Assembly (NCBI GenBank): GCA_018401435.1
Contig: JAGYJW010000006.1
Location: 1 to 64,000, forward strand
Source of the DNA: Deltaproteobacteria bacterium
Lineage (GTDB): Bacteria > Myxococcota_A > UBA796 > UBA2385
DNA length: 64,000 nt
Direction: 5' to 3'
Part shown: positions 1 through 45,583 of the stretch, piece by piece
Numbering within the stretch: position 1 is the first letter of the stretch
Layout: each line of letters begins with the position of its first letter
Translations under genes and position numbers: made by a program
The notes under the pieces: model-generated
Databases searched by the model: none
Told to the model about the DNA's origin: nothing
The model's input: the letters and a program-made list of their open reading frames with translations, nothing else

Positions 1-1344
1 ATCGCGGGTTGGACCGCGGGGCCCATCGCCGCCCAGACCGCCGATGTGCTGCGGCCCAACCAGCCCGTGAGCCTGGCCCTGCCCCGGCCCGTGGCCGAGA
101 AGATCACCGGCCCGACGGCCCTATTCTACTTTTCGCCCAGCTGTCCGCACTGCCAGCATGTCATGCCCGAGGTCAACGCCCTGGCCGGCCTCTCTGGCCT
201 GACCTGGCTGGGCATCGCCAGCAGCCGGTCCACCGAGGAAGAGGTCGCGGCCTTTGCCAAGGCCTACCAGGCGGCCTTTCCGCTGATGGTGGACGCCGAC
301 GGCGCCTTTGCCCGCGGGGTGGGCGCCCGCTCCACCCCCATCGTGCTGCTGGCCCGGCCCGCTCCCCCGGGCAGCCCCGACGCCCTGAACCCCGCCCTGG
401 TGCCCGATCCCGTCACCGTCGAGCTTTTCGAGGCCTATACGCCCTTCTCCCCCGGCATGGGATCGGTGCTGCGCCTGCGCTTGCACCCCGATGAGCCCTT
501 CGCAGACTTTGCCGGCTACCAGGGCGATCTGAGCTGCGGCAGCTGCCATGGCCACGAGGCCCGCAGCTGGGCCCTCACCCACCACTCGGTTGCCTACCGC
601 ACCCTCTACACCCGAGAGCGGGCAGAGGATCCGGCCTGCGTGGGCTGCCATGTCACCGGCATGGGCCAGGGCGGCTTTGTCCTGGGCGATCACGGCTCGC
701 CCTTCACCGACGTCACCTGCGAGTCCTGCCACGGGCCCGCGGGCCCCCACGACGGGCAACGAGACGACGCCACCGCAAGCTGTGTGGGCTGCCATGACGC
801 CGAACACTCGGTGGCCTTTTCGGTGGGCAAGGGCCTGCCCCATATCGATCACTTCCGGGATGGTGCGCTCAGCGAAGATGCGCTGATGGCGCGCATCGAG
901 GCCCTGGGCTCGGGCGAGGCCGCCAAGCCCCTGCTGGCCTTTCCCGACGGACCCACGGTGGGCAGCGCGGCCTGCAGCAGCTGCCATGCAAGCCAGGCCG
1001 CCTGGCACAAGGCTGACCCCCACAACAAGGCCCACAAGCGGGTGGCCAAGGAGCCCGCCGCATCGGGCTGCGTGGCCTGCCACGCCACGCCCCTGGCCAT
1101 GAACGCGCTGCAGCCCCCCGATGCCACCGACCCCAGCGCCTGGCGCAGCGGCGAAGGCGTGGGCTGCGAGAGCTGCCACGGCCCCGGCGGCGACCACGCA
1201 AAGGCCCCCTCCAAGTCCAATATCGTCGGCCTGGGGGACAGCTGCCCCGAGTGTGTCATCGAGGCCATCTGCACCAGCTGCCACACCCCCCAATGGGATG
1301 CAGACTGGCAGCTGGATCGGCGCCTGCAGGCCATCCAACACTAG
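1..1344 (+). CDS. Octaheme c-type cytochrome with N-terminal thioredoxin-like domain (5' partial)
   Basis: The frame is open from the first base of the window, so the true start and any signal peptide lie upstream; a GTG at 46 is the first start-like codon seen. The N-terminal third looks like a thioredoxin fold with a CPHC redox motif. The rest carries eight CXXCH heme-binding motifs (CGSCH, CVGCH, CESCH, CVGCH, CSSCH, CVACH, CESCH, CTSCH), a spacing that resembles the cytochrome c554 family. Such proteins are periplasmic electron carriers or reductases; the substrate cannot be read from the sequence. A redoxin fused to a multiheme cytochrome suggests thiol/electron exchange, but this is inference. 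proC follows 31 bases downstream. Confidence 0.85.
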   Translation: MAGWTAGPIAAQTADVLRPNQPVSLALPRPVAEKITGPTALFYFSPSCPHCQHVMPEVNALAGLSGLTWLGIASSRSTEEEVAAFAKAYQAAFPLMVDADGAFARGVGARSTPIVLLARPAPPGSPDALNPALVPDPVTVELFEAYTPFSPGMGSVLRLRLHPDEPFADFAGYQGDLSCGSCHGHEARSWALTHHSVAYRTLYTRERAEDPACVGCHVTGMGQGGFVLGDHGSPFTDVTCESCHGPAGPHDGQRDDATASCVGCHDAEHSVAFSVGKGLPHIDHFRDGALSEDALMARIEALGSGEAAKPLLAFPDGPTVGSAACSSCHASQAAWHKADPHNKAHKRVAKEPAASGCVACHATPLAMNALQPPDATDPSAWRSGEGVGCESCHGPGGDHAKAPSKSNIVGLGDSCPECVIEAICTSCHTPQWDADWQLDRRLQAIQH

Positions 1345-23997: not shown

Positions 23998-24001
<4 letters not shown>

Positions 24002-24864
24002 CCTCGTTGCTTCCTTTTCAGCGCATCGGCGTGATCGGCGCCGGCACCATGGGCCATGGCATCGCCCAGGTCTCGGCCCAGGCCGGCTACCAGGTGCGGC
24101 TCTACGACACGACCGAAGCCGCCGTGAATGCGGGCCTGGCGCGCATTGACGACAATCTCAAGAAGGGCGTGGCCAAGGGCAAGGGCACCGAAGCGGACCG
24201 CGCCGCCACCCTCGGCCGGCTGCAGCCCAGCCTCAGCCTGAAAGCGGTGGCCGAGGGCGCCGATCTGCTGATCGAGGCCATCCCCGAGCGCCTGGACCTC
24301 AAGCAGGCCCTCTTCGCGGAATTGGGCCAGCATGCGCCCGAGGGCTGCATTTTCGCAACGAATACCTCCTCCATCTCCATCGCGGCCATCGCCTCGGCCG
24401 CCCCCGATGCCAGCCGGGTGTTGGGCCTGCACTTCTTCAACCCGGTCTTCATCATGAAGCTGCTGGAGATTGTGCACCACGACGGCACTTCGGACGCGGT
24501 GCGCGCCGCGGCCCTGGCCTATGGCGCCAGCATCGACAAGGACTGCATCCAGGTGCGCGACCTGCCGGGCTTTGCCACCAGCCGCCTGGGCGTCTGCCTG
24601 GGCATGGAGGCCATTCGCATGGTGGCCGATGGGGTGGCCTCGGCCGAAGACATCGACAAGGCCATGGTGCTTGGCTACCGCCACCCCATCGGGCCCCTGC
24701 GCCTGACCGACCTGGTGGGCCTGGACGTGCGCCTCAATATCGGCGAATACCTGGCCCGCGAACTCGGCAATCCGGCCTTTGAGCCCCCCGCGCTGATGCG
24801 CGAGATGGTGGCCCGGGGCGAGCTGGGCCAGAAGAGCGGGCAGGGCTTCTACCGCTGGGGCTGA
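23998..24864 (+). CDS. 3-hydroxybutyryl-CoA dehydrogenase
   Basis: This 288-residue NAD(P)-dependent enzyme has the Rossmann motif [15 protein letters not shown], the catalytic pair region ATNTSSISI and [16 protein letters not shown], and the C-terminal [11 protein letters not shown]. It interconverts acetoacetyl-CoA and 3-hydroxybutyryl-CoA. Coupled to the thiolase by a GTGA overlap, it forms a two-step C4 module usable for butyrate/PHB-type metabolism or beta-oxidation. It converges with the DegP gene, overlapping by 16 bases. Confidence 0.92.
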
Positions 24865-38614: not shown

Positions 38615-39745
38615 TCAGCGCGGGGGGTCGGGATCGATGTCGATCACCCCGTCGGGATCCACGAAGATGTCGTCCTCGTCCCCGTTCCCGGGCTCGTCTT
38701 CGTCGCCATTCGCCGCCGCTGCTTCTGCCGAGGGGTCGTCCAGCCGGTCGCTGCCGCCTTTGCCCCGCACCCAGCCCCAGGCGGCGCCGGCGGCCTTGCC
38801 CACCTCTTCGCCCGCGCCCTTGACCCAGCGGCCCACGGGCGCGGTGGTCGCCTTCACGCCCTCGGCGTAGCTGCCCATGGCCTCGCGCCACAGGTCGCGG
38901 CGCGTCTCGTCGTCGTCGGTGTCGCGGCGTGGGTAGTCGCCGTCCATCACGGCCTGGTAGCCCCCCGCCTCGATCCAGCGGTCCAGCTCTCTCATGCGCA
39001 GCACGGGGAAGGGCTGGTGGCTGGACAGCAGGGTGAGGGTCTTGAGCAGGCTGTCCAGGACGCCGCCCTCCTCTTCGTAGCGGCGGGCCTGGTCGGCAAA
39101 GGCCGACACGCTGCTGTCGGGCCCCACCCCGCCGGCCAGGCGCAGCAGGCTGGTCCGCACCGCCTCGGGGTCCTGCGCGGCCAGCAGGCTGGCGCGGTCG
39201 GCCGACAGCGCGCTCTTGCGATCCCACTCCAACAAGGAGCCCAGCACCGCCACCAGGGCCAGGCCCGTCAGCGGCATGCGCAAGGCAAAGGACCCGCCCT
39301 TGAGCATCAGCTTGAGCATGGTCTTGTAGAGCACGTGGCCCGAAAGGATGTGGCCCAGCTCGTGGGCCAGCAGCACCCGCAGCTGGTCTGCGTCCAGCAG
39401 CTGCACCGTGGTGGCATTCAGCACGATGAAGGGGTCGTCCATGCCCACCGCACCCGCCGGCAGGACGGGGCTCTGGCTGACATAGAGCCCATAGCGCTGC
39501 GGCGCGTCCAGGATCAGCAGCAGCTCTTCATAGACGGCGTTCAAGGAGGGGTACTGTCGGGGCCCCACCTCGACCGCGCTGCCCAGGGTGATCAGCCGCA
39601 GGGGGCGCTCCGAAAAGGTGCCCATCAGCCTGCGAACCACCCGGTCAAAGCCGGGCACGTCGCGCATGGCCTGCAGGGCGGCCCGGTCGGCGGGGTGCTC
39701 CCAGGCTCGGCTGGAGATGCCGGGAAGGGGTTTTCGAGGGGCCAT
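38615..39745 (-). CDS. M48 family metallopeptidase-like protein
   Basis: This 376-residue protein has the zinc motif HELGH at residues 128-132 (LLAHELGHILSGH) followed by membrane-like helices (ALRMPLTGLALVAVLGSLLE). The third-ligand region reads RKSALSADRASLL; family members normally have Glu where Ala179 stands, so zinc binding may be impaired. The C-terminus is acidic and low in complexity (EDEPGNGDEDDIFVD). The ATG at 39745 has GGAG upstream. It heads a reverse operon with the membrane protein and the PLC-like gene, divergent from the selenoprotein genes. Confidence 0.8.
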   Translation of the reverse strand: MAPRKPLPGISSRAWEHPADRAALQAMRDVPGFDRVVRRLMGTFSERPLRLITLGSAVEVGPRQYPSLNAVYEELLLILDAPQRYGLYVSQSPVLPAGAVGMDDPFIVLNATTVQLLDADQLRVLLAHELGHILSGHVLYKTMLKLMLKGGSFALRMPLTGLALVAVLGSLLEWDRKSALSADRASLLAAQDPEAVRTSLLRLAGGVGPDSSVSAFADQARRYEEEGGVLDSLLKTLTLLSSHQPFPVLRMRELDRWIEAGGYQAVMDGDYPRRDTDDDETRRDLWREAMGSYAEGVKATTAPVGRWVKGAGEEVGKAAGAAWGWVRGKGGSDRLDDPSAEAAAANGDEDEPGNGDEDDIFVDPDGVIDIDPDPPR

Positions 39746-39833
39746 GTGCGCTCCGTGCAAAGGGGATGTGCGCAAAGTGTGAGAGCTGGGCCGGGCGCCG
39801 ATCGATCCGGTCCTCCTCGGCCATCACCGACCC

Positions 39834-41705
39834 ATGAGGCTAATCCTTCTTCCCTTGCTCTGGTCCTGCGCGGACCCCTGCCTTCAGGCCACCGCCTGGA
39901 GCGACCCCACGGGCTGCTACGCCCATGACGGGTCCGTGCAGTCCGGCCAGCGGCCGGGTGAGGACAGCGGCGCGGTCGACCTGCCTGCCGACAGCGGGGA
40001 CGCGGGGCAGACCGATGGCGGCGGGGACGGTGAGGGCGGCGGCGATGGCGGCGACGTCTCGGATGGCGGAGATGGGGGCGAAGGGCTCATTCTCGGAGAT
40101 CCCATCCTGACCGTGGCCCGCCAGGGCGACGACCCGGCCGAGGCCGTGGGCGGCGACAAGACCGAGTGGGTGGACGGGGCCCTGCTGGGCGGCGGCTATG
40201 GGCTGACCGTGGGCTACCGCGGCTGGCAGGTGCTGGAGCTGGACGCTGCGGCGCCGGTGGCCCGTCAGGCCGCGCGCAGCGGCTACAAGGTGGCCGCGGA
40301 TGGCGGCTTGGCAGCCATCACCACCCGCAGCGGCGAGGTGATGCTGCTGGATGTCTCTGACCCCCTGCGGCCGGTGGCCCGCCCCTCCCTGCTGCTCGAA
40401 GATGATGCGGTGGACGAGGATGTGGCCGTGGACGCCGGGCGCATCCTGGTGGGATGGAGCACAGCGGGTGGCCGGCTCTACGATGCGACGGGCAGCCTGC
40501 TGACCACCCTGCCCGCCGATCACGCCTTTGCGGTGGGCCTGTCGGGGGATCGGGCCGTGATCACCGATGGCGCCGACCTGGTGCTCTTTGACATCGGCGC
40601 GCCCGGGGCGCCGGTGGAGCTGGACCGCACCCGGCTGCGTGGTGAGGGCCGGGACCTGGACTTCGACGGGCAGAGGGTGGCCGTGGGCCTGGGCGGTCGC
40701 GGGGTGGACCTCTTCCATATTGAAGGCGACGTCTTCATCTTCGACGGGGACCTGGACATCCCCGGCGCCGCCCTGGGCCTGGCCTTGGACGGGGACCGCC
40801 TGTGGGTGGCGACCTGGGAGACCGTGGCCTTGGCCTGGCTGGGCGAGGGCGGCCCCTTTGTGCTGGGCCACGAGGACGTGGGCCAGAGCGCCATGGGCAT
40901 CGACGCTGCCGACGGGCGGGCGATGGTGGCCGACTGGACCTATGTCAGCCTGCTCAAGGCGGTGCCCGGCGTCGCCGGTCCCGAGATCACGGCACCTGAG
41001 CGCCTCTACCAGGTTGACCCCGGCGAGCCCCTGCGCCTGCCCCTGCGCAATGGCGGCCCCATGACCCTGACGGTGGCCTTTGATGCCCCCGCCGGGTGGA
41101 TCTTCGAGCCCGCCCAACCCAGCCTGGCGCCGGGCACCAGCCTGAATGTGGTGGTGCGACCTCCCGCGGGCGAGCCCGCTGCCGCGTCGGTGCAGATCCT
41201 CAGCAACGACCCCGACGAGGCGGTGCTGGACCTCGCCCTGCTGCTGCCCGAGGCCGATATCGGCAGCCAGCACCCCGACCTCAGCCTGCCCGGCATCCAG
41301 GTGCCCGGCGCTATTGCCGAGGGCTACGATCTGGGTGAGCAGCGCGGAAAGGTGGTCCTGCTGGTCTATTGGGCCCTGTTTTGACAGGTCTGCAGTCTGG
41401 AGGTTCCAGACGTCCAACAGTCCATCGCAGACGCCTATGACCCCGAAGAGCTGGTGGTCTGGCTGGTGAATTCCGGCGACACGGCCGAAGAGGTCGAGAC
41501 CTTCTTGCGGCGCAACTCGGTGGAGCTTCCCAGCCTGCTGGATAGCACCGGCACGGTCTACCAGAGCTATGAACAGAGCGAGGGGGGCTTTGCGCCCTAC
41601 CCCTTCCAGGTGCTGATCGACCAGCAGGGCCGCATCCAGGCCGTGGAGCACCAATACGACGCCGGGGCCATGCGCGGCCGCATCGACGCCCTGCTGGGTC
41701 GCTGA
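39834..41705 (+). CDS. Selenoprotein lipoprotein: LVIVD-like propeller plus UxxC thioredoxin-fold domain (copy 1)
   Basis: Reading the TGA at 41382-41384 as selenocysteine gives one 623-residue protein. It has a lipobox (LLPLLWSC), an Asp/Gly linker, repeats such as VMLLDVSDPLRPVARP and VLFDIGAPGAPVELD (LVIVD-like propeller, residues 85-370), an Ig-like domain (VQILSNDPDEAVLDL) and a TlpA-like redoxin domain. The domain starts at GKVVLLVYWALF, then Sec517-Gln-Val-Cys520, and continues through the cis-Pro region APYPFQVLID. The UGA sits where the first redox Cys of WCxxC is expected. The frame, GC-rich third positions and homology continue past it, and a SECIS-like hairpin follows. It is probably an envelope redox protein with a tandem paralogue 39 bases downstream. 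Without recoding, a 516-residue truncated protein would result. Confidence 0.85.
41395..41411 (+). promoter_or_regulatory. SECIS-like hairpin (copy 1)
   Basis: GTCTGGA pairs perfectly with TTCCAGAC-side bases (seven pairs), leaving the apical loop GGT at 41402-41404. The first loop G is 18 bases after the UGA, inside the range known for bacterial SECIS elements and close to the spacing of E. coli fdhF. The hairpin lies within the coding sequence, as bacterial SECIS elements do. Confidence 0.8.
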
Positions 41706-41744: not shown

Positions 41745-43586
41745 ATGCGCATCCTCCTGCTTTTGCCCGGCCTGCTCGCTTGCACCGATCCCTGCCCTGC
41801 GGGCTCCACCCGCCGGGGCGATGGGCTCTGCTACCTGAACGGGGACGGGGCCGGCGACAGCGGCCAGGTCACCGATGGGGCGGATGGCGGGGACGGGTCA
41901 GATGGCGCCGATGGGGCGGACGGCTCCGACGGCGGCGACGGTGGCAGCGGCCTGGACCTGACCTATGGCGACCCCATCCTCCCAGCCGGCCGGCAGGGCA
42001 CCGACGCCAGCGGCGGCGGCGGCGGCGAGCTGGTCGAGTGGGTGGACGCCGCGATGATCGACAGCCGATACGGCATCACCGTGGGCCAGGGGGGCTGGCA
42101 GGTGGTGGACCTGGACACGGCCGAGCGGGTCTACAAGGCCAACGCCATGCGGGGCTTCCGGGTGGCCACCGACGGCAACCTGGCCGCCATCAGCACCCGC
42201 ATGGGCCAGGTGCTGCGGGTGGATGTGTCCGACCCCACCCGACCCACCGAGATGGCCGCGCTGATGGGCGATGGCAGCGTGGCCCACGAGGATGTCGCGG
42301 TGGACGCCGGCCGCATCCTGGTGGGCTGGACCACCCGGGGCGCCATCCTCTACGACGCCGAGGGCCGGCCCACCGGCACCTTGCCCGCCACCCACGCCTT
42401 CGGGGTGGGCCTGTCGGGGGATCGGGCGGTGGTCACCGATCTGGACACGCTGATCCTCTTTGATGTGTCGGACCCGGCCTTCCCGGTCGAGCTGGACCGC
42501 CAGCCCATGCGGGGCGAGGGCCGCGATGTCTCCTTTGACGGCGACCGGGTGGCCGTGGGCATCGGTGGGCGCGGGGTGGACCTCTTCCACATTGAGGACA
42601 ACGCGCTCGTTCTCGACGGGGACCTGGATATTCCGGGCTCGTCCATGGGGCTGTCCCTGGATGGCGACCACCTGTGGGTGGCCACCTGGGAGACGGTGGC
42701 CCTGGCCTGGGTGGGCGAAGGGGGCCCGACGCTGCTGGGCCTCGAGCCCGTCAGCCAGAGCGCCTTTGGCGTGGGCGCCCGAGATGGTCGGGCCCTGGTG
42801 GCGGACTGGTTCTTTGCCAGCATCCTGGAGCAGGTGCCGGGGGTGGCCGGCCCCGAGCTGGTCATGGAAGAGACGGTCTGGCTGCGGGACGCGGGCGAGA
42901 CCCTGCTGCTGCCCGTGCGAAACGCCGGCCCCATGGCCCTCACCGTGGACTTCAGCCCCCCCGCGGGCTGGACCTTCGACCCCAGCAGCCTCAGCCTGGA
43001 CCCGGGGGCGCGCACCGATGTGCGCCTGACGCCGCCGGCCACCCTGGACCGCCCCCGAGATGCCGCCCCGGTGGTCACCAACGATCCCGACGAGTCCGAG
43101 CTGCTGCTGCAGCTCTGGCAGCCCGAGGGCGAGATCGGCGCGATGCACGATCCCTTCACCCTGACGGGCGTGCAGATGCCCGACACCACGCTGCAGGACT
43201 ATGTCCTGGAGGACCAGCGTGGCAAGGTGGTGCTGCTGGTCTACTGGGCCTTGTTCTGACCCGTCTGCAGTCTGGAGGTTCCAGACGCCGAACAGTCCAT
43301 CGCCGCCGGCTACGACCCCGATGAGGTCGTGGTGTGGCTGGTCAATTCCTCGGACCCGGTTGACGAGGTCATCACCTTTCTGCAGCGAACCAATGTGGGC
43401 TTGCCTTGCCTGCTGGACCGCAGCAGCGGACTCTATAGCAGCTATGACCGGCGCTCCACCGAAGGCAGCTATGCGCCCTATCCCTTCCAGGTCCTCATCG
43501 ACCAGAACGGGGTCATCCGCTACATCGCCACCCAGTACGACCCGGCCGGCATGCGGGATCGCATCGACGAATTGCTGGCGGATTAG
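41745..43586 (+). CDS. Selenoprotein lipoprotein: LVIVD-like propeller plus UxxC thioredoxin-fold domain (copy 2)
   Basis: Reading through the TGA at 43257-43259 gives 613 residues, paralogous to copy 1 along the whole length. It has a lipobox (LLPGLLAC), a GAD/GSD linker, propeller repeats (VLRVDVSDPTRPTEM, LILFDVSDPAFPVELDR), an Ig-like domain and a redoxin domain with Sec505-Pro-Val-Cys508. The cis-Pro region APYPFQVLIDQNG is conserved. AAGG lies before the ATG. Substitutions between the copies on both sides of the UGA are mostly conservative or synonymous, so both halves appear to be under selection as one protein. It is co-transcribed with copy 1. Confidence 0.85.
43270..43286 (+). promoter_or_regulatory. 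SECIS-like hairpin (copy 2)
   Basis: This has the same 17 bases as in copy 1, with a seven-pair stem and a GGT loop, at the same distance from the UGA (first loop G 18 bases downstream). The identity includes codons that are rare here (AGT, GTT, CCA), which suggests that the RNA shape is conserved. Confidence 0.8.
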
Positions 43587-43595
43587 CGCGCCCGG

Positions 43596-44564
43596 TCAGG
43601 GCACGATGAAGCGCACCCGCGGCCCGACCTCGACGGTCAGCCGCTTGTGTTGGCCCGCCACGAAGTCCCCGTCGATCATATAGGAGACCGGTACGGGCGA
43701 ATCGATGACAATGCTCTTGGCCACCTGGTCGTAGATGTCATCCCCGCGCATGGGTTGGCCCAGGTAGACCCGGTGCAGCTGCGACACCGGCGTCATGGGT
43801 GCGCACGGAAAGCCCAAGGCGTGCAGGTGGTCGGGGTGGGACTTTGCGGCGTGAAAGAGCTGAAAGCCCAGGCCCAGGTCATTGGTGGTGCCCACCGCCA
43901 CCGCGGCATAGCCGTCCTGGGCCTTCCAGGGCCGGCCATCCACCGTCACGGTGACGAGATCCCGCGCGAAGAGGTCGCGGGCGAAGCGCGTGCCCAGCAG
44001 GGCCGAGAGCACCCCCCGGGCCAGCACCCGCAGCGCCTTGACCACGCCGGTGGTGCCCCCGGCATAGTAGGCCTCCATGAAGCGGCTGAGCACGCCGGTC
44101 CCAAAGAGGAAGCCGCTGCTCTCGCCCCCATTCACCACCAGGGCGTTGCGTTCCACCGTTCGAAAGGCGCCCTTGCCATGCCAGGTGTCGACGATGGTGC
44201 CCAGAAAGGGCCGGGCTGGCATCTTCAGGCCAATGTTGCGGGCCAGGGTGTTCACCGTGCCGCTCTTGAGGATGGCCACCTTGGGTAGGGTGATGCGCTC
44301 TCGGGCGGTGCCCTCGGCACCTTCGGCGTAGACACGCACCAGGGCCGATACCACCTTGTGTAGGGTGCCGTCGCCCCCATTCACGCACAAGATGTCGATG
44401 TCCCTGTCGCGCAGGTTGCGGATCGTGTCTTCAAGATGGTCGAGATCCGGCGGCTGGGCCAGCTCGCCCTGGTCGCCCAATACATAGGCCAGGCGCTGGA
44501 GCAGCTCGGGGTTGCGCTTGTTGGCCCCGCTGCGGGGGTTGCTGATGACCGCGATGCCGCCCAT
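43596..44564 (-). CDS. Diacylglycerol kinase-type lipid kinase
   Basis: This 322-residue cytoplasmic enzyme has the DAGK catalytic signature: ISNPRSGANKR near the start, VNGGDGTLHKVV and LKSGTVNTLARNIGL (GTVNT replaces the usual GTGND), then the beta-sandwich domain ending VSYMIDGDFV. It phosphorylates a lipid or sphingoid-type substrate with ATP. Its start overlaps the stop of the desulfhydrase-like gene by one base, so the two form an operon. Confidence 0.85.
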   Translation of the reverse strand: MGGIAVISNPRSGANKRNPELLQRLAYVLGDQGELAQPPDLDHLEDTIRNLRDRDIDILCVNGGDGTLHKVVSALVRVYAEGAEGTARERITLPKVAILKSGTVNTLARNIGLKMPARPFLGTIVDTWHGKGAFRTVERNALVVNGGESSGFLFGTGVLSRFMEAYYAGGTTGVVKALRVLARGVLSALLGTRFARDLFARDLVTVTVDGRPWKAQDGYAAVAVGTTNDLGLGFQLFHAAKSHPDHLHALGFPCAPMTPVSQLHRVYLGQPMRGDDIYDQVAKSIVIDSPVPVSYMIDGDFVAGQHKRLTVEVGPRVRFIVP

Positions 44565-45583
44565 CAGAGCACCTCCCCATCCACCTGGGCCAGGGCGGCG
44601 GAGATCTCGGCCCCGCGCCCGAAGAGGCCGAAGATCCCCCCGGTGTGCCAGAAGAGGACCCGCTTGCCAAAGGCGGCTTTATTCCTGGCGATCTCGCGCT
44701 CCAGGGCCACCCAGGTCTTGCCCGTATAGACGGGGTCCAGGAAGAGGCCGGTCTCGCGGCTGAAGCGAAGCTGCATGGCCAGCTCCTCGGGGGTGGACAG
44801 GGCATAGCCCCGGCCCTGGTGGCCTTCCAGCACCGACCAGGTGTCGGGCCCGGGACCCGGCGGGCGGTGGCCCCAGGCGGCGGCCTCGGCGGCGATGGCC
44901 GCACCCGCCCCTCGAAGGTGGGCCGGTCGTCGCAGACCGCCACGCCCACCACCGGCGGGGCAGCCCGCGGGGCGGGAGGCCGCCAGGGTGCCGCCGGACC
45001 CGACCCCGCAGAGTACCGCCCCGAAGTCCAGGCCGAGGCCGTCGGCCTGGGCGCGCAGCTCCCGGGCGGCGTCGATGAAGCCCAGGGCGCCCACCGCGTT
45101 GCTGCCGCCTTCGGGGATGAGGAAGGGGCGCTCGCCGGCCGCCTGCAGCTCGGCCGCCCATGCGGCCAGCAGCGCGTCTCGATCGCGGTAGCCATGGGCG
45201 TCACACCAGCGCAGCCTGGCCCCCAGAATGCGGTCCAACAGGAGGTTTCCGTCCAGATCGCCCGGGGCTGGGGCGCTGCCTCGCAGCAGCAGGTGGGGCG
45301 CCATGCCCAGCTGCCGCGCCGCCACCGCCGTCGCCCGGCAGTGGTTGGACTGGATTCCCCCGGTGGTGAGCACCGCAGTGGCGCCGGCCGCCTGGGCCTG
45401 GGCCATCAGGAAGGCCAGCTTGCGCACCTTGTTGCCCGATAGCCCCAGGCCGGTGGGGTCGTCGCGCTTGACCCAGATCTCGACGCCCAGGCGCGCGGAG
45501 GGGCGGTCCAGCCGCTGGAGGGGCGTGGGCCGCTGGCCCAGGTCGAGGGGGAGGAGATCGGGGTGCAGGCGGGGGGAGGGCAT
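44564..45583 (-). CDS. PLP-dependent D-cysteine desulfhydrase / ACC deaminase family enzyme
   Basis: This 339-residue fold-type II PLP enzyme has the PLP-lysine region GLSGNKVRKLAFLMA, LTTGGIQSNHCRATAVAA, the phosphate-binding CGVGSGGTLAA and the C-terminal VLFWHTGGIFGLFG. The family eliminates sulfide and ammonia from D-cysteine or opens ACC. Between about 44,900 and 44,985 the frame leaves the homologous reading (VAVCDDRPTFEGR lies in another frame) and returns, so two compensating indels are likely. A truncated near-identical copy lies at 47.2-47.8 kb. Confidence 0.85.
   Translation of the reverse strand: MPSPRLHPDLLPLDLGQRPTPLQRLDRPSARLGVEIWVKRDDPTGLGLSGNKVRKLAFLMAQAQAAGATAVLTTGGIQSNHCRATAVAARQLGMAPHLLLRGSAPAPGDLDGNLLLDRILGARLRWCDAHGYRDRDALLAAWAAELQAAGERPFLIPEGGSNAVGALGFIDAARELRAQADGLGLDFGAVLCGVGSGGTLAASRPAGCPAGGGRGGLRRPAHLRGAGAAIAAEAAAWGHRPPGPGPDTWSVLEGHQGRGYALSTPEELAMQLRFSRETGLFLDPVYTGKTWVALEREIARNKAAFGKRVLFWHTGGIFGLFGRGAEISAALAQVDGEVL

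Follow-up and report, generated by a model that had tools for sequence, protein, structure and literature searches.

Predicted selenoproteins that join a lipoprotein propeller to a ResA/TlpA-like redox domain in Myxococcota

Introduction

Selenocysteine (Sec, U) has been described in several redoxin-type settings. The available parts of two selenoprotein catalogues list UxxC or UxxU Prx-like thiol:disulfide oxidoreductases (PF00578) and a UxxC Redoxin family protein (PF08534) (PMC13188914, PMC9312934), and the available part of the Global Ocean Sampling survey describes Sec-containing Prx-like 2 and Prx-like 3 domains that are fused to extra domains (PMC2398784). For Anaeromyxobacter dehalogenans, 11 selenoproteins have been reported, in a table row that names FdhA, SelD, a peroxiredoxin, proline reductase, thioredoxin and a DsbA-like protein (PMC1794560). 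With selenoproteins of this organism already in print, Sec use in myxobacteria is not new. A. dehalogenans is a myxobacterium; Myxococcota were formerly placed in the Deltaproteobacteria.

Here we describe two adjacent genes in a 64,000-nucleotide stretch of DNA (the whole stretch analysed, hereafter the window), each of which carries an in-frame TGA codon at the active site of a ResA/TlpA-like domain. The original prediction had reported only the first of them, as a probable selenoprotein, and had noted that deltaproteobacteria are rich in such proteins; the phylum is refined here to Myxococcota, and the second gene, with its TGA codon at the identical place, had gone unnoticed.

Results

A tandem gene pair interrupted by in-frame TGA codons

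The first open reading frame (39834-41384, plus strand) starts with an ATG at 39834, encodes 516 amino acids and ends ...GKVVLLVYWALF at a TGA codon (41382-41384). Reading this TGA as U, the frame continues U517-QVC through 106 open codons to a second TGA (41703-41705), yielding 623 residues. The original prediction had placed a stop at the first TGA, followed by a redoxin C-terminus to 41705, and both the reading frame and a Pfam AhpC-TSA match that spans the codon (residues 476-603, 55.2 bits, cut-off 26) bear this out. Gene 2 begins 39 bases past the end of gene 1, is 59% identical to it at the protein level, and has PVC after its TGA where gene 1 has QVC. The features of the pair, in window coordinates, are as follows.

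39834..41702, plus strand: gene 1, predicted selenoprotein of 623 residues; stop TGA 41703-41705
39834..39869, plus strand: gene 1, predicted signal peptide, in which Cys12 (LLWSC) is a candidate for the lipid anchor
40086..40967, plus strand: gene 1, beta-propeller, residues 85-378
40986..41249, plus strand: gene 1, Ig-like beta-sandwich, approximately residues 385-472, from strands of the model
41259..41699, plus strand: gene 1, ResA/TlpA-like thiol-disulfide oxidoreductase domain with UxxCxxE, residues 476-622
41382..41384, plus strand: gene 1, in-frame TGA, predicted Sec517, first residue of UxxC
41395..41411, plus strand: gene 1, predicted bacterial SECIS hairpin with a 7-bp stem and a GGU loop 17 nt past the UGA
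41745..43586, plus strand: gene 2, tandem paralogue, predicted selenoprotein of 613 residues; stop TAG 43587-43589
43257..43259, plus strand: gene 2, in-frame TGA, predicted Sec505, same alignment column as Sec517
43270..43286, plus strand: gene 2, predicted bacterial SECIS hairpin, stem and loop as in gene 1

The propeller, probably seven-bladed to judge from its matches (eight-bladed designs match too), is preceded by an acidic Gly/Asp-rich linker that separates it from the N-terminus. No Pfam match in the gene 1 protein covers the Ig-like domain, and two Ig-like families each match 2 of 34 relatives. The N-termini suggest that the products are exported and possibly lipid-anchored: by eye, gene 1 has a poor lipobox (LLWSC) and gene 2 has GLLAC, and 24 of 44 loci have a candidate by a loose lipobox pattern, applied with uncertain start codons and no control.

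The pair is not isolated within its own genome, an assembly of 204 contigs and 7.13 Mb (94.9% complete, 6.25% contamination). A third Sec-type copy with a TGA codon lies on contig C137, and a more distant relative on contig C150 has Cys. Among 17 redoxin-type matches in this genome, three contain an in-frame TGA, all of them in the propeller-redoxin family, and the other 14 contain no stop. The propeller/Ig/redoxin layout that the original prediction had put forward is thus present, although not as a single case: it recurs as tandem copies, as the C137 copy and as a widespread family. On the opposite strand around the pair lie genes for an M48 peptidase (38615-39775, minus strand), a diacylglycerol-kinase-type protein (43596-44564, minus strand) and a PLP-dependent enzyme (44564-45583, minus strand). 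The neighbourhoods of the window pair and of nine other loci, in which 20 proteins were scanned, share nothing obvious and give no hint of a partner, and Rfam at its gathering threshold returned nothing in the window.

The redox domain most resembles ResA and its relatives

AlphaFold modelled the redoxin domain with high confidence (pLDDT 90.9 when the domain was folded alone) and placed the TGA site within a thioredoxin fold, between a strand (507-513) and a helix (520-530). Since a structure search with the full-length model returned only propellers among the matches listed, the redoxin domain was searched alone, and ResA emerged as the top match (1su9; Foldseek E 8.6e-10, rmsd 2.2). ResA was second in a profile search against the PDB, and across NCBIfam, PDB profile and fold searches ResA, StoA, TlpA and DsbE came first or near first. 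Gene 1 scores below the NCBIfam cut-offs of all four models (ResA 44.6 of 170 bits, StoA 32.6 of 210, TlpA 25.8 of 230, DsbE 12.8 of 359), as does gene 2, and no NCBIfam model passes. NF041054, a model for ResA-like WAxxUGC motif-containing proteins and hence likewise a ResA-like domain with Sec, matches weakly (30.3 bits against a cut-off of 300, over positions 66-194 of its 354) and differs in having UGC rather than UxxC.

The TGA codon aligns to the first Cys of CxxC, and homologues with Cys at this position exist, in agreement with the UxxC motif originally proposed. The domain has a thioredoxin fold, UxxC where helix 1 begins and a Glu at +6, so that UxxCxxE reproduces the spacing of ResA Cys74-Cys77-Glu80; a nearly invariant Pro590 lies where ResA, TlpA and StoA have their cis-Pro. 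This Glu is present in 61 of 62 TGA loci. It is not universal, since Cys forms in four genomes of genus g200 (L121, L122, L123 and L133, in G338, G367, G303 and G369, respectively) have His at +6. Like ResA, TlpA and StoA, the gene 1 product is predicted, from its N-terminus, to be exported and may be membrane-tethered; in contrast to them, it has Sec in place of the first Cys, and its redox domain ends a predicted lipoprotein part of approximately 475 residues that comprises the propeller and Ig-like domains. The TlpA-like label of the original prediction therefore holds as to fold and motif, and is refined to ResA/TlpA-like as opposed to peroxiredoxin.

Comparison with catalogued selenoproteins gives a similar picture of shared active site and differing architecture. 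PF00578 matches above its cut-off with UxxC in place (U517-Q-V-C520), as expected of a Prx-like thiol:disulfide oxidoreductase selenoprotein. The Pfam domains and Sec motif are thus those of the catalogued PF00578 and PF08534 proteins, for which the available parts of the catalogues give no propeller/Ig layout; the family is set apart from these by description, and the two may overlap (PMC13188914, PMC9312934). Neither catalogue contains, in its main text, the words 'propeller', 'lipoprotein', 'myxococc', 'anaeromyxobacter' or 'sorangium'. The Global Ocean Sampling fusions likewise join a Prx-like Sec domain to further domains, but the available part of that report describes the fused domains as bearing conserved Cys, and its main text has zero occurrences of 'propeller' and 'lipoprotein' (PMC2398784). 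The A. dehalogenans row, as available, contains no propeller-type fusion (PMC1794560).

The AhpC/TSA (peroxiredoxin) model is the best Pfam match of gene 1 and is matched by 34 of 34 relatives, and Sec in thioredoxin-fold proteins often serves peroxidases; a selenoprotein with a peroxide-detoxifying role at the cell surface accordingly deserves consideration. We nevertheless think this function unlikely. Listed Sec-peroxiredoxins carry TxxU in the part of the catalogue available (PMC13188914), which makes a peroxidase less probable: this motif is absent here, both genes having UxxC. The NCBIfam, PDB profile and fold searches, together with the ResA spacing of UxxCxxE, also point away from peroxidases and towards ResA, StoA, TlpA and DsbE.

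To a similarly small degree, the selenoprotein might act mainly as an oxidase or isomerase of the DsbA or DsbC kind, on exported proteins or on its own complex. Sequence does not reveal the direction of electron flow, and among TlpA-type proteins both directions occur; against this, the closest folds are of the ResA, StoA and DsbE type, and such proteins are known as reductases. Provided that the genes encode selenoproteins, we lean towards a reductase or isomerase of exported disulfides as their function.

Homologous loci retain the TGA codon or replace it with cysteine

Open frames beyond stop codons carry little weight in this window. At least 14 of its 44 gene-like ORFs have 175 or more open codons past their stop, and because such long frames are common in GC-rich sequence, the length of the read-through proves little; it is homology, the RNA hairpin and the Cys homologues that carry the case. 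The same observation lends some support to the idea that the TGA is an ordinary stop, which closes a complete 516-residue propeller/Ig lipoprotein and leaves the downstream half as the decayed remnant of a fusion (a pseudogene). Protein records appear at first to agree. A protein database search gave 14 matches. Two are truncated products of the window itself; of the 12 relatives from elsewhere, 11 end exactly one residue before U, and P0015 ends at a different point.

The homologous loci, read at the DNA level, speak strongly against an ordinary stop. A profile of the C-terminal domain finds a match with one in-frame TGA in at least 33 of 186 genomes (the window's own included) and in six further carriers among 377 genomes of the phylum. 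Of the loci read, 62 have TGA, one of which, the 'FTEFW' sequence of L038, belongs to another group; the remaining 61 family loci share the codon at the same site. Reading through every stop in 84 distinct redoxin loci (E at most 1e-6, a set that also takes in unrelated Cys redoxins) shows TGA at the first motif position in 62 and Cys in the other 22, with TAA or TAG in none. TAG or TAA codons do occur inside the matches of G150 and G075, but elsewhere than at the motif position, where both have Cys; a partial relative that starts past the motif (L111, in G023) was left out of the counts. The 34 aligned relatives show no variation at the Glu or at either motif position, and dN is below dS beyond the TGA in nine of nine pairs, chosen by hand, consistent with purifying selection on the downstream half. 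In addition, a stop at this codon would cut inside the thioredoxin fold, and Cys homologues read straight through it. We thus consider an ordinary stop very improbable, and favor Sec insertion at the TGA.

A tree of 70 of 72 rows (the L038 'FTEFW' sequence and the Cys redoxin of L105, which is unrelated, were dropped by hand) contains nine Cys loci and 61 Sec loci; the Sec loci come from 39 genomes and include the two of the window. The Sec/Cys label switches four times on this tree, and well-supported (starred) branches force every switch; the alignment has few columns, the bootstrap is not fully settled, and the direction of each Sec/Cys change depends on the root. The closest Cys replacement is that of G052, with TGC against TGA in its nearest tree neighbor, which comes from G060, a genome of the same genus. 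In four large-genome relatives (G303, G338, G367 and G369), the proteins are contiguous CPVC forms without a hairpin. These observations answer a question raised with the original prediction, namely whether homologues have Cys in place of U517 or instead all end at the stop: Cys forms are found, and homologues do keep the downstream redoxin half.

Several loci add detail to the family. While the close family member of G052 is a Cys form, a TGA locus of this genome (L109, contig C30) sits in a distant subgroup with an LLDAW-U-PTC motif, next to the distant Cys forms from genomes G000 and G017; its hairpin fits the bacterial SECIS constraints. L038 holds, near a family gene, a second redoxin with an in-frame TGA (FTEFW-U-SGC, approximately 1040-1081, plus strand), the hairpin of which does not fit the SECIS model. 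L055 (G029 contig C915, 7548 bases) has three Sec-type family genes on one 7.5-kb contig, two on one strand, of which one is truncated where the contig ends, and a third on the opposite strand, an arrangement that suggests repeated local duplication. A scan of viral contigs by two peptide patterns found no relative.

The truncated protein records can be understood in the same terms: the database relatives that end before Sec are probably recorded cut short, and the 11 of 12 database ends at this point show how gene prediction may truncate a family of this kind within its active site. A further profile search listed nine longer, propeller-looking proteins among its matches (five of the nine were read by eye); no full-length Cys form was among the matches listed in that search.

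A covarying hairpin follows the TGA codon at a fixed distance

Bacterial SECIS elements are modelled, in the available part of the source, as a stem of 4-16 bp with a loop of 3-9 nt, a G in the first two loop positions, a UGA-to-loop distance of 16-37 nt and a minimum free energy of at most -7.5 kcal/mol (PMC13188914). Both window genes conform to this model, each with a GGU loop on a 7-bp stem 17 nt past the UGA and energies of -10.0 and -11.4 kcal/mol. All four constraints hold for 50 of 53 TGA loci, with the hairpin 16-17 nt past the TGA; the three misses are L042 and L038 (twice). By comparison, four of five Cys loci fail (one of these is the unrelated L105), and L090 alone passes. In a later set of loci, nine with TGA fold at -8.0 to -13.7 kcal/mol and five with Cys at -1.8 to -5.0 kcal/mol.

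This G052 locus (L090/L112, contig C3, approximately 43574-43972) carries Cys (TGC) at the position that is TGA in L034, its nearest neighbor on the tree, and its hairpin is intact. It looks like a recent switch.

The hairpin occurs in two registers, whose loops measure 3 and 4 nt; covariation was assessed on 52 of the 53 TGA loci. Among the 30 sequences of the first register, 97.6% of cells are paired and four of seven pairs show two-sided changes, and none of 500 shuffles scores as high. In the second (22 sequences, 21 distinct), 99.2% of cells are paired and none of 500 shuffles reaches the covariation score, whereas 12 of 500 match its two-sided pairs. Loci were assigned to registers by their stems (L042 was added without one), which biases these figures toward a stem but does not explain two-sided changes such as CUGG/CCAG to CAGG/CCUG. 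A control with random synonymous codons gave a mean stem of 3.03 bp against 6.56 bp observed, with p<0.05 in 25 and p<0.01 in 20 of 41 loci. The 'SEVSD' subclass is borderline in this control (p approximately 0.05-0.13), because the peptide itself favors a palindrome, and L042 fails it outright (p 0.97). Folding the whole 39-49 nt past the TGA beats shuffles by only a modest margin (z -0.4 to -1.8); covariation and a stem test at fixed register were used in place of these weak scores. Chance stems do arise: two of the 28 other TGA-ending gene-like ORFs of the window form one of at least 6 in this register, and the hairpin of one gene alone is therefore no proof. In one gene-like ORF of the window that ends in TGA (23998-24864, plus strand), 275 open codons follow the stop and a stem of 9 bp falls in this register, probably by chance in such GC-rich sequence.

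The genome encodes the selenocysteine machinery

A search of the genome for Sec genes, proposed alongside the original prediction, recovered the full set above cut-offs: tRNA-Sec (selC) with anticodon TCA (62.5 bits, cut-off 47), selA (495.7 bits, cut-off 267.9), selB (277.4 bits, cut-off 242.25, over model positions 2-357 of 581) and selD (261.7 bits, cut-off 125). Among the 186 genomes, all 33 carriers of the TGA locus have selA or selB. selA is found in 28 of the 33 (in G069 as a contig-edge fragment below cut-off), the other five (G007, G036, G042, G052 and G060) have selB above cut-off, and the six further carriers all have selA. Against a selA background of 123 of 186 genomes, carriers (28/33) are enriched relative to the others (95/153; Fisher p 0.014, kinship ignored). 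Six relatives without selA or selB above cut-off (G031, G033, G043, G047, G049 and G058), three of them only 77-83% complete, have no TGA match among the matches listed. tRNA-Sec above cut-off was not found in 10 of 31 carriers, mostly fragmented assemblies, although three of them (G013, G022 and G065) are at least 94% complete. selA is present, too, in the genus g200 genomes that carry Cys forms; Cys forms are thus not confined to Sec-less hosts.

Homology by itself establishes read-through of the frame and leaves the amino acid free, yet decoding of the UGA by another route (general readthrough, a suppressor tRNA or reassignment to another amino acid) is the least probable reading of all, because TGA ends 28 of the 42 other gene-like ORFs of the window, and gene 1 as well, and so is a normal stop here, while the codon in question lies at a catalytic Cys position that is Cys in nine relatives, is followed by a SECIS-type hairpin, and occurs in a genome with all the Sec genes. 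The selenoprotein call of the original prediction is supported by the Sec genes, the U/Cys homologues and the hairpin after the codon, and, on this sequence evidence, genes 1 and 2 are very likely selenoprotein genes in which Sec would be inserted at the in-frame TGA.

Discussion

Our best explanation of the locus, to which we give a probability of about 0.88 as a whole, combines Sec insertion with an exported propeller-Ig-ResA lipoprotein and a thiol-disulfide chemistry to match. SelB, tRNA-Sec and the hairpin would together insert selenocysteine at the TGA of both genes. The product would be an exported lipoprotein consisting of a possibly lipid-anchored Cys, an acidic linker, the propeller, the Ig-like domain and a C-terminal UxxCxxE ResA/TlpA-like domain. 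In such a protein, the selenolate would attack a disulfide of an exported protein, the second Cys would resolve the mixed selenenyl-sulfide that results, and the Glu at +6 from Sec, equivalent to ResA Glu80, may tune the active site. A putative membrane partner would then recharge the redox domain, and the propeller could either dock the substrate or keep the redox domain off the membrane.

The active site is of a known kind (UxxC), set in a widespread architecture of which we found no description in the catalogues searched. Literature searches, with most subscription papers and preprints outside their scope, returned no propeller-lipoprotein selenoprotein: papers on selenoproteins and Myxococcota were unrelated by title, and those on propeller, lipoprotein and selenoprotein concerned, by title, human or animal selenium biology. 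The terms sought are absent from the available part of PMC12013277, as are 'Myxococc' and 'Sorangium' from that of PMC5029168. We consider it likely that the window genes belong to an uncatalogued family of propeller-Ig-ResA lipoprotein selenoproteins, often present in several copies, that is spread across Myxococcota, cut short in databases and subject to repeated Sec/Cys switches, with one SECIS hairpin that has outlived its Sec codon.

The family adds a widespread Sec-protein architecture to a phylum that is not named in two catalogue reviews. Its fixed-distance, covarying hairpin is a compact bacterial SECIS model for finding further Sec genes in Myxococcota, and the tree neighbors L034 (Sec) and L090 (Cys) form a ready system for asking why Sec is kept.
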